NCBI GenBank assembly: GCA_000733355.1
Contig: JNVV01000080.1
Location: 58,196-122,195 of the forward strand
DNA length: 64,000 bases
Direction: 5' to 3'
From: Falciphora oryzae
Lineage: Eukaryota; Ascomycota; Sordariomycetes; Magnaporthales; Magnaporthaceae
The notes beneath the pieces are model-generated. The model saw only the letters and a program-made list of their open reading frames with translations. It made no database searches and was not told the DNA's origin. A program made the translations under genes and the position numbers. Every line of letters begins with the position of its first letter. Within the stretch, counting starts at the first letter, position 1. Positions 2,722-56,412 of the stretch are shown piece by piece.

Positions 2722-4558
2722 AGTCGGGTACCCCCCTGTCCGACCAACCCCCTGTCGGACCACTCCAATTTTGTCCGGAGGCGGCACGACCCTACACCGC
2801 TACTTTCGCATATCTCAACCAAAATGCATCCGTTTTCCATAGTTTCTACTGCATTTTGTAGGCGAAAAGATGATGAAGCAGTATACCGAAGCCCAGATCG
2901 AGGAGGCCTGCCGTTTGGCCGACGCCGGCATGCCAATCCGGCGGGCCGCCGCCGTACAAGGGATACCCTACTCTACCTTCCGGGGCAGATATCTCGGTGC
3001 AAAGTCCTATCAGCAGGCACAAGAAAAACACCAGAGGTTATTTGAGGAGGAGGAAACGCACCTGGCCACCTGGGTGGCCCTACAGGCCTCCCTAGGGCTT
3101 CCACCAACCCACGGGGAACTGCGCTTTTACGCCACTGAAATCCTCCGTACTACGGGGGACTCCCGGCCCCCAGGGAAGAACTGGACCCGGGGTTTTCTGC
3201 GCCGGAACCCTCAAATAGAGGTTCATCGAGGCCTACGCATGGAAAACGCGCGAGCAAAGGGTGCAACAACCGATATAATACGAGGTTGGTGGCCCAAGTT
3301 GGCTATACCGGAGATCGCCGGGATCCCAGCCAAATATAGGCACAACGTCGACGAAGGGGGCCTGCAGGAGGGTCGTACGGGTAACGGCCTCGTATTAGGT
3401 CTTGCCGGGACTCGTCCTTTGCACAGAAAAGAGCCCGGATCTCGTGCCTGGACCTCGTTTATCGAGTGCGTCTCGGCCACGGGGGTCCGGCTTCCTCCCC
3501 TTATAATTTTCAAAGGAAAACACCTGCAAGGCCAGTGGTTTCCGGATCAGCAGGGCTCTTTTGACGACTGGGAGTTCACTACAACAGAAAACGGCTGGAC
3601 TTCTGATCGCACGGCCGTAGAATGGCTGCAAAAGATCTACCTCCCTCGCACCCGGCCGGACCCCCCTCAACCACGTCTGCTGATCCTAGACGGCCACGGA
3701 TCCCACGTAACAAAGGCCTTCCAGTACCTTTGCTTCCAGGACGACGTTTATCTTTTATATTTACCCCCTCATACCTCTCACGTTCTGCAGCCTCTCGACT
3801 TGGGAGTTTTCTCCCCTGTTAAACGGGCCTACCGGCAGGGAATAGAGGCCCAAGCCCAGTTCTGTTGCTCTACAGTTGTAGGGAAAAGACTATTCCTTAC
3901 AGAATATAAGGCCGCACGAGAGAAAGGGATAACCCCTGCAAATATAAAGGCAGGGTGGGCCGCATCGGGCTTGTGGCCGGTCCGGATCAGCAAACCCCTT
4001 ATGAGCCGCCTTTTGCTCGAGAACTCCAACACCAGGTCTCCAGGGACCTCCGACGCTGGTCCCATGCAACAGAGGGCGCCGGAGAACCCTAGGAAGGTCC
4101 CTGTTACTTGCAAGAGGTCCTGGAAAACTCCCACCAAAAGCCGGGAATTGGCCGCGCAGATGGAGGATTTCACTACTACAATCCGGACCACCCCCACAAA
4201 GCGACTATTCCTTCGGAAGGTCCGCAAAGGCTTTACGCTAAAAGACCTCGAAATAGCTGATTGTCACCAAAAAATCCGCTCTTTAGAGGCACAACTGGAA
4301 GCTGCCCGTCCCCGGAAAAGGAAGAGGGTGGTGCCGGATCCCAACGAGACTTTCGTGACTGGGCGGCAGGTTTACTTGGCAAGGGAGGGTAATCCAGCTA
4401 CGGAAGATGCATCATCGGAATCAGCGGAAAGTTCTGAACAAGAGGATGTACAAGATTGTATAGTTGTTAGCTGGTAGAGCCGTGAATTTGGAGTTGAAAG
4501 GTGGTGTTATTGTTGGGAACAGGCAAAAATTGAGTGGTCGGACAGGGGATACCCGACT
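2722..4558 (+). mobile_element. Fot1/pogo-type DNA transposon, structurally complete (1837 bp)
   Basis: Terminal inverted repeats begin AGTCGGGTA at the left and end TACCCGACT at the right. Matching extends about 25 bp (left ...CCCTGTCCGACCA, right its complement). A TA dinucleotide flanks both ends (2720-2721 and 4559-4560), the target duplication expected of Tc1-mariner/pogo elements. The left TIR contains a second, slightly altered copy of its CCCCTGTCCGACCA segment, a subterminal duplication missing from the right end. Length (about 1.8 kb), a single long ORF and TA target all fit the Fot1 group. The paralogous repeat at 32310-32410 shows what the uninserted site looks like. Confidence 0.92.
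2870..4477 (+). CDS. Fot1/pogo-type DDE transposase (535 aa)
   Basis: An intact 535-residue ORF inside the 2722-4558 transposon. The N-terminus (about residues 4-45, YTEAQIEEACRLADAGMPIR...) is a psq/CENP-B-like helix-turn-helix for TIR binding, followed by a second HTH_Tnp_Tc5-like segment (about 55-125). The DDE_1 catalytic core follows. The three acidic residues are visible as D161 (NVDEGG), D274 (ILDGHGSH) and D310 (LQPLDLGVF). The 36-residue spacing of the last two fits the pogo/Fot1 DD35D layout. The C-terminal third is basic with a coiled-coil-like segment and an acidic tail. The first D sits in NVDEGG where most Fot1-type proteins have NMDE(K/A)G, a mild difference. With intact TIRs, TA duplication and no stops, this copy could still be active. 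Confidence 0.92.
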   Translation: MMKQYTEAQIEEACRLADAGMPIRRAAAVQGIPYSTFRGRYLGAKSYQQAQEKHQRLFEEEETHLATWVALQASLGLPPTHGELRFYATEILRTTGDSRPPGKNWTRGFLRRNPQIEVHRGLRMENARAKGATTDIIRGWWPKLAIPEIAGIPAKYRHNVDEGGLQEGRTGNGLVLGLAGTRPLHRKEPGSRAWTSFIECVSATGVRLPPLIIFKGKHLQGQWFPDQQGSFDDWEFTTTENGWTSDRTAVEWLQKIYLPRTRPDPPQPRLLILDGHGSHVTKAFQYLCFQDDVYLLYLPPHTSHVLQPLDLGVFSPVKRAYRQGIEAQAQFCCSTVVGKRLFLTEYKAAREKGITPANIKAGWAASGLWPVRISKPLMSRLLLENSNTRSPGTSDAGPMQQRAPENPRKVPVTCKRSWKTPTKSRELAAQMEDFTTTIRTTPTKRLFLRKVRKGFTLKDLEIADCHQKIRSLEAQLEAARPRKRKRVVPDPNETFVTGRQVYLAREGNPATEDASSESAESSEQEDVQDCIVVSW

Positions 4559-6847: not shown

Positions 6848-8323
6848 ATGGCCCCGCTCACGTTCCAGGCAAGCATTGTTAGTACCCGACCTGCGCGGCT
6901 TGTGTTACCCCTCCTTCCCTGCCCGCCCGGGATGTTTCCCAATACCCACGACTGACCTTTTATCCGACAGGCGCTTCAGAGCACGCTGGCCTTCATTGCC
7001 CTGGTCCTCCTCTGCGCCCGTTTCCACCTTAGAATTAATATCCAGCGCAAGTTGCCCGAAGTCAGCGACTACTTTATCCTCCTCGCTTGGTTATGCGCCA
7101 TTGTCACCTCGTCGGCCGACGTGTATGCGCTCCGCCTGGGCTGGTCTTCAAACCTCCTAATGTCGTTCGAGAATTATGGGGGCAGCCCGGAAGACTACGA
7201 GTCTTTCAACAAGGTACGCCAGCCGGTTTGATCGAGACGCAAGCACGCGCCGCGCCGCCTTTTCAGGGCAGGCGGCTAATACGCCCGTCGACAGTACTGG
7301 TACTTCACCGGCTTCCCATTTTACGTCGGCTTTTACGTGTGCAAATTCGCTATCCTCGCCCTTTACCTGAACATGTTTCCTCAGCAATTCATTTACGAGA
7401 GATATGCGCTTTATGGGACCATAGCATTCACTATCAGCGGGTGTATTGTGACAATTCTGGTGCTCGCCTTATCGTGCCTCCCGGCATCACGTATCTGGTA
7501 ATTACCTGCCTATACCGCTCCCCAGTCTTCGTTGGGTATACCACGGCCTTTTGGTTAACCAATGCCAGGTCACTTAACCCGGAAGATGCGTGCCCCTCGG
7601 CCCAGACATTTGAGATTTTGTGGTCGATTCACTTCGTTTCCGACATTTTGAGTATGAACGCCCCTTCTCCTACAACAAACTGCTGCTGTCAGCGACGAGA
7701 TTCTGATCGGAAACCAGTTTTTATTCTCCCGTTCCTGATTCTGCGTCAGGGCACGCACATGGCGAAAAGAGTGAAAATTGGCCTCTACGCTACGTTTGGC
7801 CTCGGTATTATCGACATCGGTGTCTGCCTAGGACTGCGCTTCATCCTGGTTCGGCTCACTCTCTCGACCATCACCTTGGCATCTTTGGGTGAGAGTTGCN
7901 NNNNNNNNNNNNNNNNNNNNNNNNNNNNNNNNNNNNNNNNNNNNNNNNNNNNNNTTTTTTTTTTTTTTGTCCAAAGACTTTTATTCCGCCGTCGACCTCT
8001 ATGTTTGTCTGATCATCGCCTGCCTGCCGCCACTCCGACCGTACTTGCGCATGATATCCCCCAATTCCACCACCGCGTCGGGAAGGAGCGGGCCAAAGGG
8101 AATGGCGACGGCCAGGACTGCGACTGGTCACCAGTCGACAAGCTCGAACCACCGAAACCCTGCGTGGTTATCCCCGATACCACCGGCAGCCAAAGCCTCG
8201 CGCTTGGGAAGCACGGACGCCGTGCACGACGGTAGCGGTGCCGGCCCCGATTATGAATTGGAAACCCTACCACAGGGCACGGCAAGTGGGGACGTACATG
8301 TAGGCCGGGAGCGAGCCGTATGA
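6848..8323 (+). CDS. Rhodopsin-like (Pth11-related) 7TM integral membrane protein, split by a gap
   Basis: Exons read by eye: 6848-6877, 6971-7213, 7295-7497, 7569-7651, then 7718 to the N-gap and on to the stop at 8321-8323. Introns have GT...AG ends and phases that join in frame; the first has a CTGAC branch site. The predicted product starts MAPLTFQASI and has the layout of the fungal rhodopsin-domain family: TM helices near ALQSTLAFIALVLLCARF, DYFILLAWLCAIVTS, YVGFYVCKFAILALYLN and AFTISGCIVTILVLALS. The family hallmark WSIHFVSDILIFILPF spans intron 4, followed by KIGLYATFGLGIIDIGVC. After the gap SAVDLYVCLIIACLPPLRPYLR is the last helix, then a polar cytoplasmic tail. Such proteins sit in the plasma membrane; Pth11 itself is a receptor-like protein, but this one's ligand is unknown. 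The exon structure across 7900-7965 cannot be completed. Confidence 0.75.
7900..7966. other. Assembly gap (N) followed by poly-T
   Basis: A run of N followed by a T homopolymer. It falls inside the 7TM gene, probably in or beside an intron, and hides the last exon junction. Confidence 0.95.
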
Positions 8324-16980: not shown

Positions 16981-17099
16981 GTGATATCACTGCCAAGGTC
17001 CCCCCCCAAGCGTTCCCGAAGAAGTCGGAAAGAAATTCATCATGGGTCGTTCCCTAGTAACACAAATTTGACATATTAGAATGGAGGTACCTTTAGCTG

Positions 17100-17781
17100 T
17101 CAAAAGTAAAATTGCTGCTGCTGGGGTTGACCCGGCGGCGGTTGGGCGAGGAAGTCGAAGTTCATCGAGTCCATTCCCGTGTTCCATGGGTCGGGGGATT
17201 CTACGAGGCGAAATCCAGTTAATACCACGAGACGCACAAGAGGACGGATCAGGGGTGAGAAAAGGAGAGCCTACCCCAGAAGATTTGATCGTAGACATCC
17301 GTCGGCGACATATAGGTGGATGGGTCGATGACGGTATGATTAACAAGACCTTCCTGCATCTGCGGGACGAAGGCCAGAGTGCTATGGGTCGGAAAAGAAA
17401 GCCAGGCCGACGTCAGCACGTGAAACGATTGTGCACTACGATCCAAGTGCCCACAATTGCGTGGAAAGAGAGATACTAGGGGAGAGGAGAGCGGGGCAAA
17501 TGAAAGCATGGTCGGGACGTACTTGGAGAACTCGGAAAGTGCATTTCCATTCTGCATCTCTGCCATGGCGAGGGCCGCGCCCTGGTGCGGATCCAGCGTG
17601 GCCGAGACACCATTGAGGAGCTGCTGCTGCGGGTCCTGCCCGCCAGCGCCAGCTGGTAGCACGGTCGTCGCGGCGCCGAACTGCAAGTTTCTGCGCACGG
17701 ACATTTGACCCCCTTTTTGGGCTGCACAGTGCATGTTCCCTAGCACAATGTACTGCCACTTTGAATACTCCCCCACGACTT
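17100..17781 (-). pseudogene. C-terminal exons of a possible transcription-factor gene (partial)
   Basis: Three exons can be spliced in frame on the minus strand: 17781-17523, 17381-17275 and 17200-17100 (TGA). The introns are 141 and 74 bp. The product starts VVGEYSKWQYIVLGNMHCAAQ, passes AEMQNGNALSEF and PSTYMSPTDVYDQIFW, and ends GMDSMNFDFLAQ plus a Gln-rich tail. The style resembles C-termini of fungal Zn2Cys6 regulators, but the DNA-binding part is absent and upstream sequence is unrelated (NLR remnant). I infer a gene truncated by rearrangement. The coding nature is well supported by phase-consistent introns; the family call is weak. Confidence 0.5.
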
Positions 17782-17943
17782 CTGCTTACATTTGCTCTCG
17801 ATAGGCCGTCGACTCTGGCCTTCATATTACTTGAACTGATTCAGTACAATATCCGCACAACTCATCTATGGGCGATCAGCCCCTTATCCCTATAAATGCA
17901 GAAACCGAAGCTGACTAATGCCATCATTAGAGACATTGTGCCA

Positions 17944-19344
17944 TCACGAAGACACTGGCACCTTCTCGAAGCTCGTTCTATGGGGTATAAAATAGCGATG
18001 CGCCCTAGGAACTGTGGAAGGGCAAAGGTAAGAGAAGATATACTGTATATTCCCCAGGACGATTTGGCATTTCGGGTGAGACGGACCTAAAGCGCGTTCG
18101 AAGCCTTGCAGCGCGCGCTCGTACAGGGCCTCAGCCTCGTCGAGCCGGGCCCGATCGGAGTAGAGGTTGGCCAGGCTGTTGACGGTCGAGAGCGTCGACG
18201 TGTGGTCCGGCCCGAGCGCTGTCTCGTAGCTCTGCAGCGCGCGCTTGTACAGGGCCTCGGCCTCGTCGAGCCGGCCCCGATCGGAGTAGAGGTCGCCTAG
18301 GCGGCGCATTGCACCCATCACCGGGATGTCAACGAAGCTCCCTTCAGCCCCACCGGCCCCGCCTCTCTCCCATCCACCATGAACACCGCTCCGCATGCGG
18401 GAGAAGCCGCTGCTGCAGCACCCAATAGTCCTTCGTGGTTCTACTAGGCACTGTTTCCCCAACCATCACCATCGCCAGCCGCAAGAACTCTCTCTTCTCC
18501 CGGTCGTTTTGTATGTGTGCCGTCCACCGATGCGCCACGGGGTGCATCGTATAGCTTCCTTGTATGGACTCCTGGGCTTCGATCATCGAATAGCGGAGCA
18601 GCAGTCGAACCGCAGCCATGAACCTGACCTCGCTGCAGGCCATCCCATAGAGCCAGGCCGGCCACCGTTCTTCATCCGCAGCTGCTTCCACCAAACCGTG
18701 CCACAGGTCTTTATTGTCGAGGAATGCCCAAAGCCGGATCAGGTTTGCCGCACTCTTGTTCCCTTGCTAGACTGCATTAAACGATATCGTCCATGTCGTC
18801 CCAACGCTCCGCTGCTCGTAGTCCGCCAGCGGCGAGCCGGTCTCTTCGGACTTCATTAGGTCGTCCCACTGCTTTTGATAGAGCCGAACGTACGATGCCA
18901 TGTCGAGCTCGGTCTCGCGGAGATACGCGGCGGCTTGTGCTAGCGCCAGGGGCAGACCGTCTAGTTGACGGAGTAATTAGCTCTTTGCCGGCCTCGTCCA
19001 TGACTGAAATTAAATCAGTTCTGAACCTCACTTGCTTATGGAGAGGGCTTACCTAGCTCTGCTCCACGCCACTGCTGGAAAATGGCCTTGCCCAGCTCTT
19101 CGTCGACCTTTTTTAGCTGCTTCGAATTGCCGAGCTGCGTGAGCCGTGATAGTCGTGTGGTGACCAGCACCGCCCCGTGGTCGGCAGGTAGGTACTGTTG
19201 AACATCGTATGCGCCGGTCGCACCGCCTTGCTCATGGTCCTGGTCGACGTTGTCAAAGACGAGCAGCCAGTCGACGTTGTCCGGCCGCGCCAGCCACTCC
19301 ATCACGTCCGCTACCACGGCGTCGAGTCTGTGGATGTGTTTTGG
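17944..19344 (-). pseudogene. NB-ARC-TPR NLR remnant
   Basis: On the minus strand an NB-ARC segment (HIHRLDAVVADVMEWL, Walker B WLLVFDNVD, sensor VLVTTR) is followed by an intron (GTAAGC... at about 19055). Next come the GLPLALAQAAAYLRE segment, the post-NB winged region (DEERWPAWLYGMACSEVRF, SYTMHPVAHRW) and kinesin-light-chain-like TPRs (LGDLYSDRGRLDEAEALYKRAL, LANLYSDRARLDEAEALYERAL). Breaks: the P-loop side is missing (homology ends near 19344), there is a one-base frameshift near 18972, an in-frame TAG at 18767-18769 and a second frameshift near 18365. Fungal NB-ARC-TPR proteins are STAND-type sensors; this copy is dead. Confidence 0.8.
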
Positions 19345-20416
19345 CAGGACCCACTGCAGCCTCAAAGGCTTTGCGGCATTCAGCTGGCCACAGCCCGCTT
19401 CGGCGGTGGTGTCTTCCCTTTTTGGTTCGGAGTGTGCGAGCTTGTGCCATGGATTTGCAAGAGCAATATCGGCCGGGCCCATGGCCTGCAGCCCGCAGCC
19501 CCTTCTGCCCCGCCAGCCCGCTCTCTCAGCCATGCTCCACATTTCGCAGCCCCTACGGCCTGGGATTACTGGGATCCCTTCTGATTTGCCCAGCCCTTCC
19601 GGCCAGCTCTCGTCAGCCTGACCATTACACCATGGCTCCGTACTTGGCACAGCCGCCCCACCTGGCTTCTATTCTTCTCCTGACCAACTTTCCATGGAGC
19701 TGGTTCGCACCATCATCGGCCCAGCCTGACCATTTGCTACCCCGCTCACACCTCGGTCCGGCACCACATCCTATCGGCCAAATTCGGGGCGTCGGTGGCC
19801 TGCAGAAGCAGAAGCAACCAGTCCTCCCATGATTGCATTAAGAGGTGCGTTATTTGGGGGGCTCCTTGGCATGTAATGGCCTGCATGAGTGTGTATTCAG
19901 CTGTGCAGGAAGGCTGGATGGAACAGGCTCGCTATTGGTCCTAGCTGCGTCGAGGTCGGTGTATTATCTCCGCTTCCCTCCGCTTGCCTCCGCTCCCCGG
20001 CCCCCAAAACACCGAAGGACCCACGCGCACAACCAGAGTTCGGTGTTCCAGCCTGACCAAAGCTGCGCCCTCGGGGACTGAACAGAGCCTCCCTGTCTTC
20101 CCATCCGACTTCCCGTTCTTCCTGTTCATCTCCTCCCCCTTTTTACCCCCTCCCTCGTCCTTTGCATCCGCATTCCGTGCGCCTCTTGTCCCGCCGTTCA
20201 AACTCTGGCCAGCTCGTTCTATGCTGGCACTGTCTTTGGCCCATACATTTTCCGGCTTCCGTGTGCCATTCGATTCTTCCTACCCTGCTGGTGCTGCCTT
20301 GCCAAGACAAGAGCCTCGATCATAGCATATCTGCCGTTTCTCCTCCTTGGTCACATCCCTTCTCTTTCGTACCCTCTCTCCTCCTCCGTCTCGTTGCTCT
20401 CCTATTGCCATTAACC
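19345..20416. other. Unassigned stretch and upstream region of the PNP gene
   Basis: No gene recognised at 19345-20080. From about 20080 to 20416 the plus strand is pyrimidine-rich (CT tracts), like fungal promoters and leaders, and probably drives the PNP-domain gene that starts at 20417. Confidence 0.4.
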
Positions 20417-21640
20417 ATGTTGCCACCGATCGACCGCAGCGGCTTCCATCTAGCCATCATCTGTGCGTTGCGCATCGAATCGGACGCTGTGAGGCTCCTC
20501 TTCGACGACATTTACGAGAAAAAGTACGGACGGGAGACCGGCGACACCAACACATACACGACGGGCCGCATCGGGAACCATGCCGTCGTACTCCTCCTAC
20601 TCCCAGGCATGGGGATGGAGGCATCGGCGGCAGGCGCAAGGAGCTTGCAGTCGAGCTATACCAACATCAAACTTGCCCTGACCGTCGGTGTTTGCGGAGG
20701 TCTGCCCCAGATCCGTGGTCGGGACGCCTTTTTGGGTGACGTGATTGTTAGCAAGAGCATCCTCAACCATGACTTCGGCAGGCGATACCCGGACGAGTTC
20801 GTCGTCAGGTCCACTGAGGGCACGCTGGGACAGGCCAACAACGACATCCGCGGGCTGCTCGAGCTGCTGGAAGGGGAAGACGAGCTGGAGCGCCTGCAGA
20901 GAAAGGCGACGGCGAACCTGGTGGCGCTGCAGGCCGCCGCCGTCGAGAAGAAGCGGAAGACCAGCTACAGCCCTCCCCCCGACGCCGCCGACACCATATT
21001 CCCTGCCGAGTACGACCACATCCACCACAAGGAGGACTGCGACGAGTGCGAGGCAGATCCCCCGCGCTTCTGCGAGCCGGCCTCCAAGCTCTCTTGCGAG
21101 GAGGCCGGGTGCGAGACGCCGCGCTGCGCCCCGAGGCAGAACCGGCAGAAGGAGCGCCCGGCGGAGCTCGTACCTCGGGTCTTCATGGGCAGAGTGGCCT
21201 GCGGCAACGCGGTCATGAAGTCGGGCAAGCACCGCGACGCGGTTGCCGAGAAGCACGGCGTGATTGCCTTCGAGATGGAAGGGGCCGGGGCTTGGAAGGA
21301 GGTCCCTTGCATCGTCGTCAAGGGCATCTGTGACTACGCCGACAGCCACAAAAACAAGCAATGGCAGAACTTTGCTGCGGCAACGGCGGCTTCGGTGGCC
21401 GCGGCGATACTTGACCGATACGAGGTGTCAGGCGGCGTCAAACAAAGGAGCTCTGAACCAATGGGCCGCAACAGCACCACGACCAACAGCCACAACGTCA
21501 ACGACAGCCACGTCAACAACAGCCACAAAGTCAACAATAGCCACAACGCCACGACCAATAGCCACAACACCATCACAAACGGGGATGGGGCAGTGGCTGT
21601 GGGTGGCAACGTGGGTGGCAATATCAGTATCGGCAAGTAG
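20417..21640 (+). CDS. PNP-domain (nucleoside-phosphorylase-like) NLR N-terminus, probably first exon of a fusion
   Basis: The ATG at 20417 opens a 407-residue frame. Residues ~10-330 form a PNP_UDP_1-type domain as found at the N-terminus of many fungal NLRs. Visible motifs are FHLAIICALRIESDAVRLLFD, YTTGRIGNHAVVLLLLPGMGMEASA, LALTVGVCGGLP, FLGDVIVSKSI, VIAFEMEGAGAW and IVVKGICDYADSHKNKQWQNFAAATAAS. Between them lies a Cys-rich insert (CDECEADPPRFCEP). The last ~54 residues are Asn/Ser/His repeats. The frame ends TAG at 21638-21640. A phase-1 donor (GTATCG, 21627) inside the last codons could splice to an acceptor at 21884 with a CTAAT branch. That would continue in frame into a NACHT P-loop and then an RdRP. 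I cannot decide between a stand-alone 407-aa protein and the N-terminus of that fusion; NLR logic favours the latter. Confidence 0.8.
   Translation: MLPPIDRSGFHLAIICALRIESDAVRLLFDDIYEKKYGRETGDTNTYTTGRIGNHAVVLLLLPGMGMEASAAGARSLQSSYTNIKLALTVGVCGGLPQIRGRDAFLGDVIVSKSILNHDFGRRYPDEFVVRSTEGTLGQANNDIRGLLELLEGEDELERLQRKATANLVALQAAAVEKKRKTSYSPPPDAADTIFPAEYDHIHHKEDCDECEADPPRFCEPASKLSCEEAGCETPRCAPRQNRQKERPAELVPRVFMGRVACGNAVMKSGKHRDAVAEKHGVIAFEMEGAGAWKEVPCIVVKGICDYADSHKNKQWQNFAAATAASVAAAILDRYEVSGGVKQRSSEPMGRNSTTTNSHNVNDSHVNNSHKVNNSHNATTNSHNTITNGDGAVAVGGNVGGNISIGK
21466..21637 (+). other. Asn/Ser/His-rich low-complexity repeat in the PNP protein tail
   Basis: The codons here give repeated NSHN, NDSHV, NNSHK and NNSHN-type units at about 6-8-residue spacing, then a Gly/Val-rich GDGAVAVGGNVGGN end. 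Such Asn-rich repeats in NLR proteins can be amyloid-forming linkers; that is inference from composition only. Confidence 0.6.
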
Positions 21641-21884
21641 TTTGAATCTTGTTTAGAAATTATCAATTGCTCAACCCATCGAACTACCACTCTGTGGGAC
21701 ATACGCCCCAAGAAGCCCAAGTCTTCGGATGACGGCGACGACTCTTCAGACTGAAGGGCAGGCAAGGAGGCTGACCAGCTAAATAGACCAGCGAACTCAA
21801 ATCTACGCGGCATGTTAGTTTCCATTTCCCATTGTAATCAACATTGACTTATTTTCACTTTTCAAATCTAATCGTATCGCTCAG

Positions 21885-24800
21885 ACACACATGAACCTCC
21901 ACAGCCATCAAAAGATTCCCTCAGATCGCTCGCCTTTCCGCAAATGCACAATCGCTCCCATGACATTGACCGCGCCGTCACGGGGACATGCGAGTGGCTG
22001 CTTGGACACGAGAAGTATCGGACATGGGCCGCTCGCGATCGAGACCTGCTCTGGATTAAGGGGAAGCCGGGCTCCGGGAAGTCGACATTGCTAAAATACG
22101 CCCTTGACAATGGAGCCGTGCCCAGCGCCGGAGATACTACCCTCGTTCTCCCGTTCTTCTTCCACGATCGCGGTCATGAACTCGAAAGGAAGCCGGTGCC
22201 GGGCCCTCCACAGAAGCGCAATCAGCTTCAGGAGCGCTTGGATTTGGTTTGGCGTATGTGCTTCTGCAATTATGTATTTGATATCTCTTCTTCCGTTCAC
22301 CGGCGTTGCTTCGAGTCTAATTTCAAACAGCCAGTTTCCCCGACTGGCTTAGGGCGGCACCACTGGCAGTCGCCTGGGAGGTCTGTCGCGTTGCTCTTCA
22401 CTGTGGAGTTGATCCCAGCAAGGTCAAGGGAATGGCATATGACCCGAGCTGGGTCGAGCAGAAGAAGCTCTGGTCTGCATTGTACCAACGCTCTGAATTT
22501 CAACCCCATGCTTTTCCGGAGCAGTCGCCCCCGCTCGCCTGGGCCGCCGCCCTGGACTCGTTCAAAAGCCGAGATCAGACCGTCGTCCTTTCAGCCAGCC
22601 TGGACTTCAACATGGCCTCGTCCGGCCCACTCTTCGTCCTAAAGATGCTTCCACTGAACCTCGACGACTCGCACCGTCTAAGTAGACGCTTCGGCTCGGA
22701 CCGCTTTCTTGAGATTCTATACCCCTCGCCAAACTCGGCCAACGTCCCATCAGCGCTTCGAGGTGAAGATGCCCGAGAGGCTGCGAATAAGTGGCTCGCG
22801 CGAGGCCGCCATTGGCTGGTCGGCAGACAGTGGGTGTCTTTTTACACCAAAGATGCCGGGTACAAACATCCTGCGACCGACGTGAAGCTTGGGCCAGAAT
22901 CACTCAAAGCGGTGTTCAAAGACAGGACGTACTTCTTCGCCGTTGACGGCCACGGCTTCCGGACCCCCTCTCCAAGGGACAGCTTGCCGCCTAAGGACCA
23001 AAAAGTCACAGGGAGGACTAGACTGTCGGTGCATAGGATGGTAGACTGGCTGCTACAGATCCGGGAGAACACAGATCAGCCATACTTGAAGCTATTCTCC
23101 CGCATTAACCTTGGTACGTCTCCTCTTTTGTTCACTTCGAGTGGGTCGGGAGAGGTAGAATAATTAGGCTGCTGACCTCTTGCACAGGACTGAGCAAAAC
23201 GTATCCAACGGTCACGTTTGAGTCCCGCCAAATCCGCGCACAGCCAGAGGACCTCCTTTCACCCAAGGGCAAAGTCATGAACGACGGCGTTGGCCTGATG
23301 TCTCGCTCTGTCGCTCGTAAGATACAAAAGATCCTGGGCCTCACCATTCTTCCCTGCGCAGTTCAAGGGCGTCTTGGCAGTGCCAAGGGGATGTGGATCA
23401 TCGACATTGAAGACCTCAGCGGCAAGGATTGGATCGAGACCTACCCTTCCCAGCGCAAATGGGTCTGTGACGTCAGCGACCCCGACCATCGTACGCTGGA
23501 GGTGTGGAGCCATGCGTCGGAGCTTCATTCCGCTCGCCTTAACCTCCAGTTCCTGCCAGTGCTGGAAGACAGGAGTAGAGACAAGGCTGCCTTCCGCAGT
23601 GCTGTTAGAGACTTGCTCGAGGAAAACCTCCAGGCCGAGCTAGAGGGCCTTCGGGTGGCCTTGAACAGGCCAATCCAGCATCGGCAGTGGGTTCACGAGA
23701 ATTCCACAAATCGTGACACTCGCATCCGATACGGCGAAGTTCCGTTTCTTGGGGGCATTCCCGACAAAGACGAGGAAACCATGGACATGATGCTGGATCA
23801 TGGCTTCGATCCCAAGAAGCAAAAGTACCTGCAGGATCTGGCCTGGGTACTTCAGAAGCAGAAGTGTGAGACTTTAAAGAAGAAGCTCAACATCAGCGTT
23901 GGGAGATCCACCTACATGTACATGGTTGTGGACTTTTGGGGTCTCCTGGAGGAGGATGAGGTGCACATCTGCTTCTCCAACAAGCTCCAGGTTGGCGACT
24001 TTGCAGATACGCTGCTCGACGGCATTGACCTGCTGTTGGCACGGTCCCCGGCTCACTACGTCAGCGACATCCAGAAGGTCAAGGCAGTCTTCAAGTCCGC
24101 CCTCAAGGATCTGAAAGATGTCATCGTCCTCCCGCGCAAAGGCAATGTGGCACTCGCCGACAAGCTTTCCGGAGGCGATTATGACGGAGACATGGCCTGG
24201 GTATGCTGGGACCAGGCCATCGTGTCCAACTTTATCAACGCCCCCCTGCCTCACCCGCCCGACCTCTTCAAGATGGGATATCTCAACAAGATCAAGGAAA
24301 AAATGGAGGACCTCGTCATGGAACACGGATTGGAGGTCGCCACGTCGGAGCTGATCGAGCGCAGCTTCTTGTTCAACATGCGACAAAACTACCTTGGCAT
24401 CTGCACCAACTTTAAGGAGAAGCTCTGCTACAAGCGACGCAACGTGCACGACGGCTGTGCCGTTCTTCTCAGCACGCTCCTGAGCAATCTTGTCGACCAA
24501 TCCAAGCAGGGGATCGGGTTCTCAGCCAGCCAGTGGCGACGGTTGAAGGCCGACCTCGGTGAGGACAGGGAGCTGGACCTGCCGCTCTACAAGGAAGGAA
24601 ACTGGGCCGGGGTTAGCGAGCCCAACCACATCATCGACTACCTCAAGTTCTCGGTCGCCAAGCCGCTGATAGACCGCGAGCTGGGCGCATTCCACAAGGC
24701 GATCAGCAGCGGAAAGACTACGCGGGGTGTCAATGATCTCTCCGCCTCGCCATCCAAACCCGGAAGCGGCGAGGCGGCTGATGATGGCAGCAGCGAGGCG

Positions 24801-25418
24801 CACTATTACGACGCTGATCTGACAGAGTACTTCAACGAGTTCAGCAAGATGGAGTCGGCTTCGGTCAAGAAGCTACTAGCGAGCCTCAAGAGGGACATCT
24901 ACATGGTCGAGAACGAGTGGAAGCGGGCGATGGCGTCGACAAACGAGGCTGGCACTGGCGAGGGCGTCAACAAAAGCGGCGGCGACGCCGACTTCCGGCG
25001 CAAGGTGCTCGAGGTGTACGGCATGTGGTGCGGGATCCAGCCGGACAAGGAGGCGCACAAGGCGCTGGCCGACTCCAAGGTCGTGGCGATGCTGGAGCAG
25101 CCGTTCCTGCACCCGGAGGCCAGCCAGTGGGCGCTGCTGCGGGCGTCGGCGGCGTTCAAGCTGCTCTACCGCACCGGCCACAAGTTCGTCTGGCGCATGG
25201 CGGGCAGGCAGCTCATGCGCCTCAAGTCGCTGGCGGTGGCGAAGCGGGAAGGAGGAGGACCGGCCCTGGCGGTCGTGCCGGGCATGTACGTGGCGCTCCG
25301 GCCTGACGGCAAGCTCATCAAGCAGCTCGTCGCGAGGGAGGAGGGCAGCGGGTCCCAGTACACGGGCGCCGACGGTGGTGACGACGGGTCGGATTATGGG
25401 GATGATGGCTGGGACTGA
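21885..25418 (+). CDS. QDE-1-type RNA-dependent RNA polymerase with an N-terminal NACHT P-loop segment
   Basis: Exons: 21885-22253, 22331-23113 and 23188-25418, with introns of 77 bp (GTATGT, CTAAT branch) and 74 bp (GTACGT, CTGAC branch). The first exon reads SLAFPQMHNRSHDIDRAVTG, then LLWIKGKPGSGKSTLLKYAL (Walker A). This is the start of a fungal NACHT module and breaks off after FFFHDRGHELE. It then runs without a stop into RdRP sequence: QERLDLVW joins across intron 1 to PSFPDWLRAAPLAVAWEVCRV. The catalytic double-psi beta-barrel signature GGDYDGDMAW has its DxDxD aspartates at 24177-24191, intact. The RdRP part is about 1000 residues, the size of the crystallised QDE-1 catalytic core; the usual N-terminal extension is replaced by NLR sequence. 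Alone it starts at ATG 21944. With 20417-21626 as first exon the total is 4593 nt, a 1530-residue PNP-NACHT-RdRP protein. RdRPs of this family make dsRNA/aRNA for quelling-type silencing. Confidence 0.8.
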
Positions 25419-25807
25419 TTTTTGCTCATTTCTGGGGGAGACTGACAGGGCTTGGTTAGTTGCTGTCCTGTTGGTGCGTTTGGATTTCGGTCTGCTCAAT
25501 ACCTTTACGTCGAGTTTCCTTGGTTTCCTTTGTTGGATTGCCTTTTCTTCCTTTTTTATTTTTCTCATCACCCGTTTCCTCACCCCTTGTTTGCTCGTAC
25601 TTCTTTTCCGACTTGTTGGATTTCTTTCCTATTGTGATCCTCTCCTTACCACGTTTTTCCTTCTTGGAACCATTTCCTTTCGTGACTCTACCTGTCCCTT
25701 TTTTTCTGTCCTTGTTGTGGGAGAAGTTCGTCGTGGCGCGAGTTGGTCAAGACGTTTGTCCGTTGTGGTGCCGTTAATGGGAAATTGGACCATGTCCAAG
25801 CTGAAAT

Positions 25808-25832
25808 CCCGCTGAACTTAAGTATATCAATA
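25808..25832 (+). other. 25-nt piece of the 5' end of 28S rDNA
   Basis: The stretch starting CCCGCTGAACTTAAG matches the universally conserved start of fungal large-subunit rRNA over 25 bases with one difference (C to T, in a CpA context). Neither the upstream 5.8S/ITS2 side nor the downstream D1 region is present, so it is a stray fragment, not an rRNA gene. Confidence 0.6.
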
Positions 25833-26321
25833 CTGTCATTGGCCTGAAGTTGAGGCCTTGGGCTCTGCGTCTTTCTGCCGCAGCAGGCTGGTCTCCTGCC
25901 GGGACAGACCTGGGTGCGAGAACCAAGAGAGAATGCAGGCGGTGGAGTAGCCGGGCTGCTGTCCGCGGAGGCCAAAGAACGCGGGCGGCCGAAGGCTCTC
26001 TGCTACGAGGACATTCAGCTAATGATAGTCCGTCATCCGGGAACGGGACGGGCAACCCCCGCGATGGCCATTAAGTTTGTCCATCACAAGGGCTCGGACA
26101 ACAGGCCAAAACCGTAAGTTTTACGCCTGCCGCACGCGATCCATGTAATCTCATCTACTTCTTCGACTATCTTCTTCTTCTACTACTAACCACGTCTAAA
26201 AGTGCACGGTTTTGCGGCGAGTAGGATCGTACCTTTTTGCGGGCCGCAAGCTGTAAAAGTACTTGATTCCTTAACAATTTGGTAGTGCAGAGGTAATTTT
26301 TGCGGGAAAATACCCCGGCGC
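25833..26321. other. No gene recognised
   Basis: Short overlapping frames only; no domain or repeat identified before the LTR at 26322. Confidence 0.4.
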
Positions 26322-26544
26322 TGTCACGGCACCAACGAGGGCGAAGAGGCCGAGCTGCAACAAACCCTCAGGTTGATTTGGCTATCTAGAGTTAAGGAAC
26401 AAAAAAGGAAGAGTTTGTGCGTTGCACCTGTTCGGATCGATTGCCTTAGGTAGGGCAATCGAGCCGAGCTCCACTTGTCGCACGGATCTGCCAGGCGCCC
26501 GTGCAACAGGTGGCCGAGCCCTACCAAGGCTACGTGCCATAACA
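26322..26544 (+). repeat. Solo LTR, family 5 (copy a)
   Basis: Begins TGTCACGGCACCAACGAGG and ends CTACGTGCCATAACA. An inverted, well-conserved copy lies at 56179-56412. Flanks GGCGC and GGGCC do not match. The ends TG...CA support an LTR; size is about 223 bp. Confidence 0.7.
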
Positions 26545-28688: not shown

Positions 28689-29318
28689 GGCTGTCTGAAG
28701 GTATTTTTACGTAGAGAGATAGATCGATCTCTCGTAGCGAATGTGGGAGTAGCTCTCTAGTAACGAGCGTTAGAGCGGCTCTCGAATAGCGAATGGAGGA
28801 TGATGCACACGAAGGGTTGTCGGAGCATACACGATCATGCTTCTTCCACGCAGCCCCAGCCGGGCGGCACGCTTTTTAATGTCTCTCATCGTCGTCACCC
28901 CTTTTCCTTTCAATGCCGACTTGGGCGGGCCGGGCCCACTGCTCGTCGGGCTTCCCGCTTTCGTATCCTCAATCCTGGGTAGCTGACTTGGGTCTATACG
29001 AACTTGAGTGACGTCTGTCGACCCATAGCTTGGTCCGCCCGAGCGCCTCCAACGCGCAATATGGATTCGGCACCCTTAAAGCTGCTGCTGGGGCTTGTTA
29101 TGGGTGGAGAGGCGGGAAAACGTGCTCCTTCCAGCGCGACGGGGTGGTGCTGGATCGAGTGTCCGTGCAACCAATCAAGAAGCGGATAATCTGTTTGCAT
29201 CTCGTATTTTTTTTTTTTTTTTTTTTTCAGCAAGACGGCCCCACTAAAGTCCCCCAGCTTTTCCAGGCCCATCAGTGGGGACTTGGCAGGGGTTAAAAAA
29301 GGGATGAGAGAGGTCACT
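28689..29318. other. Peroxidase promoter side and unassigned sequence
   Basis: Near 28700-28800 short imperfect repeats of a CTCTCG/TAGCGAATG type occur upstream of the peroxidase. A poly-T tract lies at about 29206-29228. No gene is seen before the NLR remnant. Confidence 0.45.
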
Positions 29319-30950
29319 AGCGGATAAGCAGACACCTCGAGAGATTGAGGCCGCTCTGGCGGATAAGAACAAGACGTACGAGAAGCCGTACGAAAACACC
29401 ATAAAGCGCATCGAGGGTTCCGGCCAGGCTCAATTTGCCAAGAAAGCCTTGTCGTGGGTCGTGTGCGCAATGCGCCCGCTTACGACGTCGGAGCTTCTGC
29501 ACGCCCTCGCTATAAACCTCGGAGACACAGTTTTGGACGAGCGCAATATCCCCGACATGGACGGGGTCATATCAGCTTGTGCTGGCCTGTTGACGGTCGA
29601 TGAGGGAAGCGGTGTCGTCCGCCTCATCCACTACACCGCCCACGAGTATTTAGCAAATGGCTCCGGCAACAAGACCCTCCTCTCAGATGCCGAGGCGTAC
29701 ATCGCAGGCATATGCACCACCTACCTGTCCTTTGACGACTTTGAGAGAGGCTTCTGCGCTACGGACGCCGGTCTCGAGGCCCGGTTGTCGAAGCACCCTC
29801 TTTATCGTTACGTGGCGCGCAATTGGGGATATCACGCTCGTGAGGCCTCCCTGTCGCCAAGCGATAGCAGCCTCCGAATCTTTTTGAGCAGCGCATCCAA
29901 GATGGAATCCGCGGGCCAGGCGATGATGGCCATTAGGGAGCGGAGCCCCTGGGCCGGCTACAGCCAGGAGGCCCCCAGGGGGGTAACGGGCCTGCATCTG
30001 ACTGCACGCTTCGGCGCCGCAAACATCGTCTCGGACCTCCTCACCCGGTGCGAGGCCGGAGATTGCGATGCACAAGAAAGCCACCACCGAACTCCGCTCA
30101 TGTGAGTGGTAGCGTTAAGCAACCTCGGGATCGCGCGGATGCTCGACGCGGGCGCAGACCCCAACTTGAAAGACAAGGACGGTCGAACGCCGCTATCCCT
30201 AGCCGCCGAGAACGGTTTCGCGGACATCGTGAGACGCTGCTGAAGGAGGAGAGGCTCACCATGCGCGGTGATTCGCAAAGGGACGAAGCAGGCCTCCTGC
30301 CGCTCTTTTGGGCGGCCCGCAACGGCCACGTCGATGTTGTGAGGATGCTGCTGGCGCGATCGAGCCTCGAAGGCGGGGAGGCAGACAACCCTCTCTTATG
30401 GGCCGTCCTGCAAGACAACGAGGCAGTCGTCAAGACCATTTCGGAGGCTGCCCTCCGGGGGGCGGGCCCGGGCTGGGGAGAGAGAATAGCACCCAAGGCG
30501 CTGTGCTTGGCGGCAGAGATCGGCCGGGTGCCCATATTTACCCACCTCCTATCCGCTCTCGGGGGCGACGTCAACTGCCGCGGTGACAACGGGAGGACGC
30601 CACTGATGCAAGCCGCTCTTAAAGGCCGCGATGAGATGGCCGGGTGCTACTCCATTTCGGCGCCGATCCCAGTATAAGTGATCAAAGTGGTCGGACTGCC
30701 TTTTCCCTAGCCGCCGCATTCGGCCAGGATGCCGTGGTCAGCCTGCTCCTCCTTCGTGCACCGGTCGAGGTCGAGGTCGACGGCGCGGACAGGAACGGCC
30801 GGACCCCGCTATCACTGGCCGCGGAAAACGGACACGAGGCCGTCGTGCAGGCGCTGCTGGGGCTCGAGGGCGACGTGGTGAGCGTCGACGCGCGGGACAA
30901 GGCGCGGCTTATGTTGAGACCAAGTCTGCTTTTCTGGAAAGCAGTAAAAA
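29319..30950 (+). pseudogene. NACHT-ankyrin NLR remnant
   Basis: The plus strand starts inside the region following NACHT (YENTIKRIEG, KKALSWVVCAMRPLTTSELLHALAI, VISACAGLLTVDEGSGVVRLIHYTAHEYL). It continues into ankyrin repeats (GVTGLHLTARFGAANIVSDLL, DGRTPLSLAAENG, NGRTPLMQAALKGR, GRTAFSLAAAFGQDAVVSLLL). Breaks: an in-frame TGA near 30103 and frame changes near 30233 and 30645. The N-terminal domain and NACHT P-loop are missing. It is a 5'-truncated pseudogene of the same general class as 16030-16980. Confidence 0.8.
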
Positions 30951-35637: not shown

Positions 35638-35922
35638 TGTCACACGGGAGAACCTGCGGACTCACCTAATCGGCCCCACAGAAGGTCCGGGAACCGGTTT
35701 AGGTGCCCAACGGCCCCGAGGCCCAAAGGCCGAAGGCCGGAAGGGCAGTGTGAATCATGTACTTAATACTTCGCACGGATCACAGGGTGGTTTATATAAA
35801 CCCTGCCATCTCCTATGTCTTCCATAAGAGATTCCTTCTTCCTCAAGCATCTCTTGAGCCCATAGAAAGATTATCTGCAATATAGAGATCCTTCTCCGAG
35901 CCGTCTTTGACCCCTTGTTACA
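35638..35922 (+). repeat. LTR, family 4 (copy a)
   Basis: Begins TGTCACACGGGAG, contains TATATAA near 35794 and ends CCTTGTTACA. It is homologous to 40613-41081 without that copy's nested LTR. GTCG lies on both sides (35634-35637, 35923-35926), a 4-bp match; the fifth base differs. Confidence 0.7.
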
Positions 35923-36024
35923 GTCGTGTTGCAGTCTGTGTACATGCCATAATGGCTCCCTTCGACGTGGCCTCCCAAACCGATAACGATACAATCCATG
36001 ATGATCGTAAGAACAGATCCGGGG

Positions 36025-54429: not shown

Positions 54430-56034
54430 TCAATGGAAGCTTATGCCTCGTGCTTGTTCAATTCCTCCAATATTGTGGGAGCCGATGCGGACTTGATTTT
54501 CTCCACTTTTTTTTTGTGATTTCACCAAGGGGCCACGAGCCTCCCTGACGGCCTCCTGGGCCTCCTGGATACGCTCTATTTGATAGAATGCATCCTGTGC
54601 ACTCCTTTTGACTGTACGGCGAGGGGCAGGCTTGAGGGAGGCCACCTCTTCTTTTAAACGCTCGTTTTCCGCCCGCAAAGCCGCCGTTTCAATGCTCTGT
54701 TGGTCCAGGGCCCTAGCAGCCTTCCGGAAAAGCATGCGGAAGTCTCGTTGGCATCCGTTTACCTTCCCCTCAAAGCGCCGGGCTTGTTGCTTAAGCTGTT
54801 GGCCGCTTTTGGGAGTATACCAAATACGTCCTTTGTTATCCAGCTCGACGTGGGGCTCGGGGGTAGAGGGCTGGGCAGGCTCTAGGAAAGGCTCGATTAA
54901 CCTTTGGGAATCAGGGGCCAACGGGGGCTTGGTAGGCCAGATCCCGGCTTTCCGGAAGCCTGCGTGTATATTGCGCATGGAAATTGCGTTTGACGAGGCC
55001 GTGGCGTAGGCCCGGAGGAAGCGTTTCTTTTGTTCAGGGGCAGAGGTATCGAAAGAAGCAAAATGACGGGTTTCGCGTTTATAGTACGACTTTAGGGGGC
55101 TGAATACGCCCACGTCGAGGGGTTGGGTAACGTGGCTTGAATGCGGAGGCAGGTAAAGTATTAGCACTTTATTTTTGAAAGCCTCGTACATGAAAGGGAT
55201 CGTTACGTGGGTGGTATGCTCGTCGACGATAAGCAGGCGCCATTGGTCCCCCGGAGGCTTTGTTTCTGGCAAATAAACCTCCAATAGCCAACGGAGGGCT
55301 ATCGGGCCGTTGGACCAGCCACTGGACGAATGGTCGTACTTCCAAGCCTGGATCGAATCCGGGAACCGTTGGCCTTGAAGCGATCAGCCCGTGAATATAA
55401 TCACGGGCGTAAGGCGAGCCCCTGTAGCCGTTACAGATTCGAATATCGTCACCCACGTTGTGCAATCCGACTCTTTAACTTCTGCATGCTTTGTAAGGGC
55501 AGTGCCTACTACCCTTCCAACGCGCGTTGCCCCCTCTTGGATTCCGGCCTCGTCCATGTTGCATATATTCGCAGGAATGATATCGCGGGCGGCAACTACG
55601 CCTCGAAGACGGTTATAAAATGTGTCGATCTCTTCTTTGGTAGCTTCTTTGGCTCTGGAGGCCTCGAGGCCATGGCCGACTTTGGTAGTCACCATAGGAT
55701 TTCGCAATAAAAAGCCCTCGATCCAATGCTTCCCAAGCCAGCCGGGCTCGTCTTCAGGGGATAACATCATCTGCGCGAATTCCCGCACCATTTCTTTAGT
55801 AGGAGCTCGCCCTGCCTTTTCTTCCGTGCAAATCCAGTCAGTAACAAAGCTTTCCTGCACGGCAGAAAGTCGTTGGCAGGGCTCCTTGGCCTCATGTATG
55901 GTTAGGCCGCCTCGAAGTCGCCGGCGTAGGGTTGTGCGTGGGACATTCCAACGGCGCGCCGCGTCGGCCCGGGACCCGCCCGATTCGACAGACTTGATGG
56001 CTTCGGCCATTCGGTAGGCTTCGTCGGATGACAT
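54430..56034 (-). pseudogene. Pogo/Fot1-type transposase with a single nonsense codon
   Basis: From the ATG at 56034 to the TGA at 54430 the frame is continuous over 534 codons plus the final stop, except for one TGA at 55384-55386. The N-terminus has the HTH (MAEAIKSVESGGSRADAARRWNVPRTTLRRRLRG). The catalytic acidic residues are all visible: NMDEAGIQEG before the stop, and LLIVDEHTTHVT and TQPLDVGVFSPLK after it. A CGA to TGA change would explain the stop. Length is almost identical to the intact transposase at 2870-4477, but sequence divergence is substantial, so these are two different families. Confidence 0.9.
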
Positions 56035-56178
56035 GATGCAAAAAAACGCACTTAAATGATATTTTTTTCGTTCGAATCGGGTTTATTTTGATGAAGTTGT
56101 GCATTTGTTGCGTCGAGAATTACGTGGCCAAGATTGGGGGATGGCCAAGTTCGGGTGCCCCACTCTAAACGTCAAACT

Positions 56179-56412
56179 TGTCATGGCACGTAGCCCTGGC
56201 AGGGCTCGGTGCCAGGTAGACCCACTTGTTGCACGGGCGCCTGGCAGATCCGTGCAACGAGTGGAGCCCGGCCCAATTGCCCTACCTAAGGCAATCGATC
56301 CGAACAGGTGCAACGCACAACTCTTCCTTTTTTGTTCCTTAACTCTAGATAGCCAAATCAACCTGAGGGTTTGTTGCAGCTTGGCCTCTTCGCCCTCGCT
56401 GGTGCCGTGACA
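56179..56412 (-). repeat. Solo LTR, family 5 (copy b, inverted)
   Basis: The reverse complement of 26322-26544, ending GGTGCCGTGACA on the plus strand. No matching flanks. It begins 13 bp after the end of the pogo element. Confidence 0.7.

Follow-up and report, generated by a model that had tools for sequence, protein, structure and literature searches.

An apparently unique chimeric gene in Falciphora oryzae, predicted to encode a QDE-1-type RNA-dependent RNA polymerase behind an NLR-derived front

In an NLR the effector precedes a complete NACHT, which is followed by a repeat sensor. For domain-shuffled fungal NLRs, PMC4986451 (in excerpt) infers that de novo architectures came about through domain fusion events. 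The QDE-1-type cellular RNA-dependent RNA polymerases (RdRPs; PF05183), represented by the enzymes of N. crassa and Thielavia, have a native N-terminus that is called non-catalytic and of extremely low conservation in part of PMC4861493. In QDE-1 the slab domain starts at residue 390, with a core that forms a dimer (PMC1750930, in excerpt), and full-length QDE-1 and the ΔN fragment 377–1402 have similar activities (PMC2950127, in excerpt). The gene described here, found in a 64,000-nucleotide stretch of F. oryzae contig JNVV01000080.1 (the window), combines pieces of both kinds of gene. It resembles QDE-1-type RdRPs in its complete RdRP domain and active-site residues, and shares intron places with the paralogs C14 and C71, but the ~430-aa non-catalytic N-terminus and the promoter have been swapped for NLR material. 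It is like the PNP-NACHT-ankyrin NLRs of Gaeumannomyces in its PNP exon, linker, mini-exon and NACHT start, but has an RdRP in place of the remaining NACHT and the ankyrins. Unlike the domain-shuffled fungal NLRs of PMC4986451 and of the Sordariales survey PMC12258605, as excerpted, it has a gene other than an NLR as its fusion partner and does not retain the NLR core. With a probability of roughly 55%, we read the locus as a lineage-specific chimeric QDE-1-type RdRP gene with an NLR promoter, whose predicted product has a PNP cap and a working polymerase core.

The translated frame runs from the PNP domain through a partial NACHT into a complete QDE-1-type RdRP with no internal stop. An initial annotation, made from the letters alone, had described this open frame as four exons, and the frame itself was borne out: the first four-exon model totals 4593 nt, a multiple of 3, keeps phase, has GT/AG ends and gives 1530 aa with zero internal stops. 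The exon boundaries fared less well, since homologs give five exons and leave the donor at 21627 unsupported. The homolog-supported model has a frame of 4626 nt and 1541 aa, all on the + strand. Exon 1 (20417–21632), which is NLR-derived, encodes the PNP_UDP_1 domain (PF01048, E 4e-15) and an Asn/His-rich linker. Exon 2 (21787–21813) is a 27-nt mini-exon found at the same place and phase in the paralog C51. Exon 3 (21885–22253) is composite, with an NLR-derived NACHT stub at 21885–22189 (PF24883, profile positions 1–67 of 164) and an RdRP-derived part at 22191–22253, PVPGPPQKRNQLQERLDLVW, which lies just ahead of and at the slab domain start. Exon 4 (22331–23113) covers the RdRP slab and the beginning of PF05183 (E 1.2e-14), and exon 5 (23188–25418) the catalytic, neck and head parts (PF05183, E 3.4e-109), with the stop at 25416–25418. 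The five-exon model was preferred because the GC donor (gcaagt) at 21633 after exon 1 and the mini-exon are both conserved in C51 and an NLR-type peptide results: the junction peptide GNISIDQRTQIYAAYTHEPPQ resembles NISIDQRTYVNACTYE of P0121 and NIDQRTYVNATYTHE of C51, and the mini-exon peptide is like the DQRTYVNA of the annotated Gaeumannomyces NLRs P0121 and P0122. The GT donor at 21627 (gtatcg) was rejected, as it sits in a stretch absent from the intact paralog C51; a GT at 21637, worked out by hand, is in the wrong phase with the acceptor at 21884. The exon 3 donor place and the exon 4 splice places are common to the C14 and C71 RdRPs. On the 1530-aa protein, Pfam placed PF01048 at aa 12–125 (E 1.9e-13), PF24883 (NPHP3_N), the best-matching profile for this NACHT, at aa 437–506, and PF05183 at aa 632–1277 (profile 8–582 of 582, E 6.1e-132). 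An Rfam scan at gathering level and a tRNA scan gave nothing.

If intron 1 is retained, translation ends at a TAG at 21638–21640 and yields a 407-aa PNP-only protein. The locus might then have two products, a stand-alone PNP protein and an N-truncated RdRP made from an internal start; an in-frame ATG at 21944 ahead of the RdRP core, the stop immediately after exon 1 and the GC donor of intron 1 all suit this arrangement. We consider it unlikely, given that the NLRs P0121 and P0122 are annotated as single proteins over intron 1 and that the exon layout is kept in the intact C51. The GC donor of intron 1, and the PNP-only product that its retention would give, were also counted against the favoured reading of the locus.

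The front parent was the 5' part, including the 5' flank, of a PNP-NACHT-ankyrin NLR gene. Window positions 20001–22189 align with the C51 NLR at 86% identity, and over the first 337 residues, in the PNP part, amino-acid identity is 96.1% with C51 and likewise with P0121. C51 is an intact 1246-aa PNP-NACHT-ANK NLR with a matching exon layout; other intact relatives are P0121 (RB595_003687, G. hyphopodioides) and P0122 (RB593_001600, G. tritici). The NLR-derived 5' flank (19328–20416, + strand), presumed to be a promoter region, aligns in patches with the C51 5' flank (19328–19442 at 94%, 20001–20416 at 85%). As for domains, the phosphorylase-fold profile PF01048 matched, as is expected of a PNP_UDP_1 effector, and stands N-terminally as in an NLR; a complete nucleotide-binding domain and a C-terminal repeat sensor were not found. 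The NACHT start that had been named in the initial annotation holds for its Walker A part, GKPGSGKST at 22061–22087, and for nothing beyond the first ~40% of the domain: the NACHT is cut after Walker A, so that the fusion covers 67 of the 164 positions of PF24883, against 164 of 164 in C51 and P0121. A VWLFVDALDEC-type segment, which we take to be Walker B, is present in 12 aligned NLRs and missing from the fusion. No ankyrin, WD40 or TPR match was found in the fused protein with Pfam at E<=1. PF22939 (winged helix) likewise had no match in the fusion at E<=1, but the relatives' own matches are weak and below the cut-off (P0121 E 0.0026, P0122 0.0059, P0126 0.0002; none listed for C51 at 1e-5), so its absence is no test of winged-helix loss.

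Because the RdRP sits behind a NACHT stub, with neither ankyrins nor the Walker B segment, the fusion has no receptor module left with which to sense non-self. The earlier proposals of an NLR that has a silencing RdRP for its effector, and of a link from non-self sensing to dsRNA synthesis, thus did not survive. A true sensor, in which an NLR-like switch would turn non-self recognition into dsRNA synthesis, could point to the retained Walker A and to the PNP and RdRP profile matches; with a NACHT reduced to 67 profile positions where C51 and P0121 have all 164, and with no Walker B segment or repeats, it is extremely improbable.

The back of the gene is an RdRP of the QDE-1 group with full PF05183. 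It scored 1057 and 1002 bits against the solved QDE-1 sequences of Thielavia and Neurospora, respectively (structures 5fsw and 2j7n; names partly from PMC4861493), in alignments that begin at residues 27 and 16 of the solved chains. DYDGD is intact at 24177–24191, and the equivalents of all six QDE-1 residues Q736, K743, K767, D1007, D1009 and D1011 (numbering of the active site from PMC1750930) are kept. These profile and homolog matches support what had been read earlier from the letters: a front derived from an NLR, a back of QDE-1 type and an intact DYDGD. What is not native is the N-terminal extension. The foreign part gives way to RdRP sequence around N. crassa QDE-1 residue 392, next to which NQLQERL aligns and at which the solved active fragment begins. 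A normal N-terminus of ~430 aa is present in C14 (1445 aa), C71 (1487 aa) and P0001–P0004. Five RdRP loci were found in the whole genome; C14 and C71 are unfused, and the C2 and C25 RdRP frames, in the stretches around the matches, showed no NLR-like front and no P-loop.

The NLR/RdRP breakpoint lies at 22189–22191, inside exon 3 and not at an intron. The C51 alignment ends at 22189 and the C14 alignment starts at 22191; the matches to the NLRs C102, C71:114.6k and C5 likewise run out at 22189/22190, and that to the C71 RdRP begins at 22188. The sequence there reads ...GAACTCGAAAGG followed by AAGCCGG..., with microhomology, by eye, of a few bases at most. The join is in frame for both parents, whose frames continue over it (HDRGHELER / KPVPGPPQKRNQLQERLDLVW). 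In-frame joining alone has a 1-in-3 chance; the strong match of both halves to known families is beyond chance.

The surroundings tell which DNA was the newcomer. The region 17008–17659 (+ strand) is the ancestral upstream flank of the RdRP locus, 76% identical to C14:165924–165243; in the 50.2-Mb genome it occurs in two places, the window and C14, where it has the same orientation and precedes the RdRP core by ~5 kb. On the other side, 22191–25941 (+ strand) is collinear with the C14 RdRP paralog (C14:160231–156504, 81.4%), 3' flank included. The block between, 17660–22189, occupies the place of the C14 RdRP exon 1 and its upstream region, and consists of a TPR-type NLR fragment and the PNP-NLR 5' part (19328–22189). 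The fragment (18098–19327, - strand), foreign to the RdRP locus, is 85% identical to C47:16433–17660, with a TPR match (E 9e-26) and, in a different frame, a DUF7779 match below the cut-off (E 0.00098); it is open merely in short pieces in differing frames. Because the flank is common to the window and C14 only, the RdRP locus is ancestral and the NLR material came in: these alignments show an ancestral RdRP locus whose exon 1 has given way to foreign DNA. The idea that RdRP exons moved beside an NLR was rejected on the same flank. Of the alternatives listed in the initial annotation, the truncation of an RdRP in frame by an NLR fragment came closest to this history; two adjacent genes, also among those alternatives, are a possible reading.

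Another of those alternatives was an assembly join, in which unrelated contigs would meet near 22190. The window does hold one N run, a 55-N gap at 7900–7954, but there is no N near the join. On its far side the foreign block borders DNA that is collinear with the C14 RdRP locus and has no other match in the genome, and orphan halves were not seen. When C14 exon 1 was searched as DNA against the genome it matched only C14 and C71 (C71 at 68% over 2–798 of 1301), with no orphan copy. Nor was there an orphan NLR remainder close to C51: with 40 of 43 candidates scored, the best-scoring other match was 79%, and identities to the C51 remainder above 79% came only from short pieces, at most about 120 bases long, or from pieces of repeat units. 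The NLR copy itself differs from C51 by 8–14%. Misassembly is very unlikely because of the two-sided C14 collinearity, the lack of orphan halves and a join free of N's.

The relatives of the two halves were placed in trees. The best RdRP matches are P0001 (83%) and the Gaeumannomyces proteins P0002 and P0003 (81%); the C71 RdRP is 91.6% identical to P0004 of G. hyphopodioides. The host is probably close to Gaeumannomyces. With the tree rooted on more distant RdRPs, C14 and P0001–P0003 form a clade (support 0.993) with the window core outside, so placed that the window core is an older paralog relative to that clade. In the tree of the NLR half, the window groups with the whole NLRs P0121 and P0122, apart from C51 (support 0.963). 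From these two placements the fusion arose on the window's own branch. Protein searches, which reach proteins of 0.55–1.75x the query length with exact shared words, gave no second case of PF01048 or NACHT together with PF05183 among the matches listed. None of the best 120 of 434 RdRP relatives had PF01048, PF24883 or PF05729, and no PF05183 was shown for the best 120 of 1113 NLR-side relatives, domain lists for some being incomplete. For a query spanning the join, coverage reached at most 59% in the best 120 of 184 matches, none of which bears both families. A fusion ortholog that could show conservation was thus absent among the matches listed. The terms "RdRP" and "RNA-dependent" are absent from the main texts of the NLR surveys PMC4986451, PMC9815663 and PMC12258605, and no NLR-RdRP fusion appears in the titles and abstract openings of the papers listed from the open-licence PMC literature. 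The chimeric gene appears, on these comparisons, to be real, lineage-specific and unique.

How such a gene could arise and work may be sketched as follows. A DNA break would have joined, with the frame preserved, an NLR 5' part made up of the 5' flank, the PNP exon, the mini-exon and ~305 nt from the start of the NACHT exon to a gene for a QDE-1-type RdRP, landing a few codons ahead of the RdRP catalytic fragment. The RdRP's own promoter and its non-catalytic first exon of ~430 aa would thereby be replaced. The expected product, made from an NLR promoter, is a 1541-aa RdRP that bears a PNP cap together with an inert P-loop stub. The polymerase core would still copy ssRNA into dsRNA, as QDE-1 without its N-terminus does; we infer this polymerase activity by analogy with the active ΔN QDE-1 fragment (PMC2950127, in excerpt). 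Expression, localisation and partners of the chimera would probably have changed, and the PNP domain would be carried along, its copies perhaps brought together through core dimerisation. The PNP family in bacteria is described, in part of PMC10197012, as an immune ATP nucleosidase; that the PNP domain here is active, or is activated by RdRP dimerisation, is speculation. Doubtful, too, is a two-headed enzyme kept by selection, in which a PNP effector, possibly an ATP nucleosidase, would ride on a dimeric silencing RdRP under an NLR promoter. If it existed, dsRNA synthesis would be on in the same cells and at the same moments as the NLR repertoire, and non-self response and RNA silencing would have found a new way to become one gene. 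The join itself documents, at base resolution, a natural recombination between a fungal NLR gene and a gene unrelated to it: the break took away the receptor, left the NLR 5' flank and effector, and landed immediately ahead of an RNAi polymerase's catalytic fragment. If the gene is expressed, a single step would have placed RNA silencing under the control of an immune receptor, and the connection of allorecognition genes with dsRNA synthesis becomes directly testable. If it is not expressed, it would be a clean young in-frame chimera that gene predictors could mislabel as an "NLR-RdRP".

The initial annotation took the clean frame as a sign of selection, which does not follow from the frame alone: because the families of both halves were under selection before joining, the open frame is inherited. 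A young functionless chimera, with the control of both genes destroyed and the frame open for lack of time, is accordingly a possible reading, though held tentatively. We modelled stops with a probability of 0.033 per substitution; indels, at an assumed rate, make the model stricter. For a neutral frame of this size the probability of having no stop is 0.05 after 0.02 substitutions/site and 0.0006 after 0.05. Post-fusion selection is thus needed only for an age above about 0.02 substitutions/site; below that age a stop-free frame by chance has p of at least 0.05. The upper age limit of the fusion is 0.037–0.057 silent changes/site on the window lineage (11.5 or 17.5 of 308 sites, the latter adding half of the unassigned changes), at which the chance of zero stops is just 0.004–0.0002. 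The fusion is accordingly young or under selection, and the data fit both. Youth also fits the lack of a conserved ortholog among the matches listed and three changed invariant RdRP columns, but the splice sites of both halves are kept and no acceleration is seen in the PNP part or in the RdRP part.

Substitution patterns were then compared part by part. For the RdRP core, the window and C14 differ by dS 0.53 and dN 0.089 (ratio 0.167); polarised by C71, the changes are 56 synonymous and 20 nonsynonymous on the window lineage and 97.8 and 50.2 on the C14 lineage. The core ratio and the window-lineage counts were taken as support for the favoured reading; much of this divergence may predate the fusion. 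Residues unique among the compared sequences number 38 in the window and 57 in C14 over the 1008 residues of the core. The window changed 3 of the 108 columns that are invariant in 94 full-length homologs (drawn from the best 120 of 434 relatives), where C14 and C71 changed 0; at the 97% level (166 columns) the window changed 3, C14 1 and C71 4, single homologs ranging from 0 to 3.6%. For the NLR part, polarised with the four open PNP copies C9, C17, C35 and C29 as outgroups and the broken C38 copy left out, the window-lineage changes are few and show no bias to silent sites, which was counted against the favoured reading: 4 synonymous and 6 nonsynonymous in the PNP domain (9 and 4 unassigned) and 7.5 and 8.5 in the stub (3 and 3 unassigned). 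Unique residues show no excess in the window's PNP part (3 of 337, against 9 each in C51 and P0121), which was likewise taken as support, and a slight excess in its stub (8 of 93, against 6 in C51 and 4 in P0121). Of 289 columns that do not vary among 12 NLRs, the window departs at 5, including one to the right of the join, a share within the leave-one-out range of 0.7–3.0% for the 12 NLRs. Some relaxation is possible, because of the extra unique changes of the stub and the three changed RdRP columns. Against C51, the PNP domain has dS 0.104 and dN 0.017 (ratio 0.16) and the stub dS 0.234 and dN 0.090 (ratio 0.38), and the whole of exon 1 with its repetitive linker has a dN/dS of 0.43. The values for exon 1 and the stub, both above that of the PNP domain, were likewise counted against the favoured reading.

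The linker behind the PNP domain, encoded by the 3' part of the fusion's first exon (window 21428-21632), is made up of Asn/His-rich SHN repeats and ends C-terminally in GAVAVGGNVGGNISI. By eye, this end is like the short amyloid-type motifs that adjoin PNP effectors; the linker did not, again by eye, fit the PUASM pattern in the form in which it is quoted in PMC9815663. Among the RdRP relatives listed (120 of 434), two database proteins also carry additional Pfam domains, of other kinds: PF14543 and PF00026 in P0007, and PF13599 in P0022. These may be merged gene models or more RdRP fusions.

A PNP-NLR copy on contig C38 (positions 1328-2354 of the stretch L039; 76% DNA identity) is disrupted by one stop and by frameshifts, whereas the copy in the window is not so disrupted. 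A lone winged-helix frame on the plus strand at window 29308-30102 (PF22939, E 1.3e-13) is of the same kind as those found in NACHT NLRs, and is possibly a further NLR remnant.

Immediately 3' of the RdRP, the stretch at window 25780-26330 opens with the motif CCCGCTGAACTTAAGTATATCAAT, which we take to resemble the 5' part of LSU rRNA; an Rfam scan at the gathering level gave no match for this stretch. Its first part is common to the 3' flank of the unfused RdRP paralog on C14 (80%), and its last part to C11 (88%). Short dispersed repeats at window 26321-26544, 35667-35924 and 56178-56412 have copies on C14, on C51 (the contig with the intact NLR) or elsewhere on C80, with identities of 91-95%, and may be MITEs or solo LTRs.

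DDE_1 and Tc5-type DNA-binding transposase domains were matched in a reading frame at window 2843-4474 (plus strand) and in a second, broken into two frames, at 54433-56082 (minus strand). At another of the genome's five RdRP loci, that on C25 (L005/L006), the two RdRP matches (127779 and 129625) are separated by a frame that by eye is transposase-like, as would be expected had a transposon inserted inside this RdRP gene.
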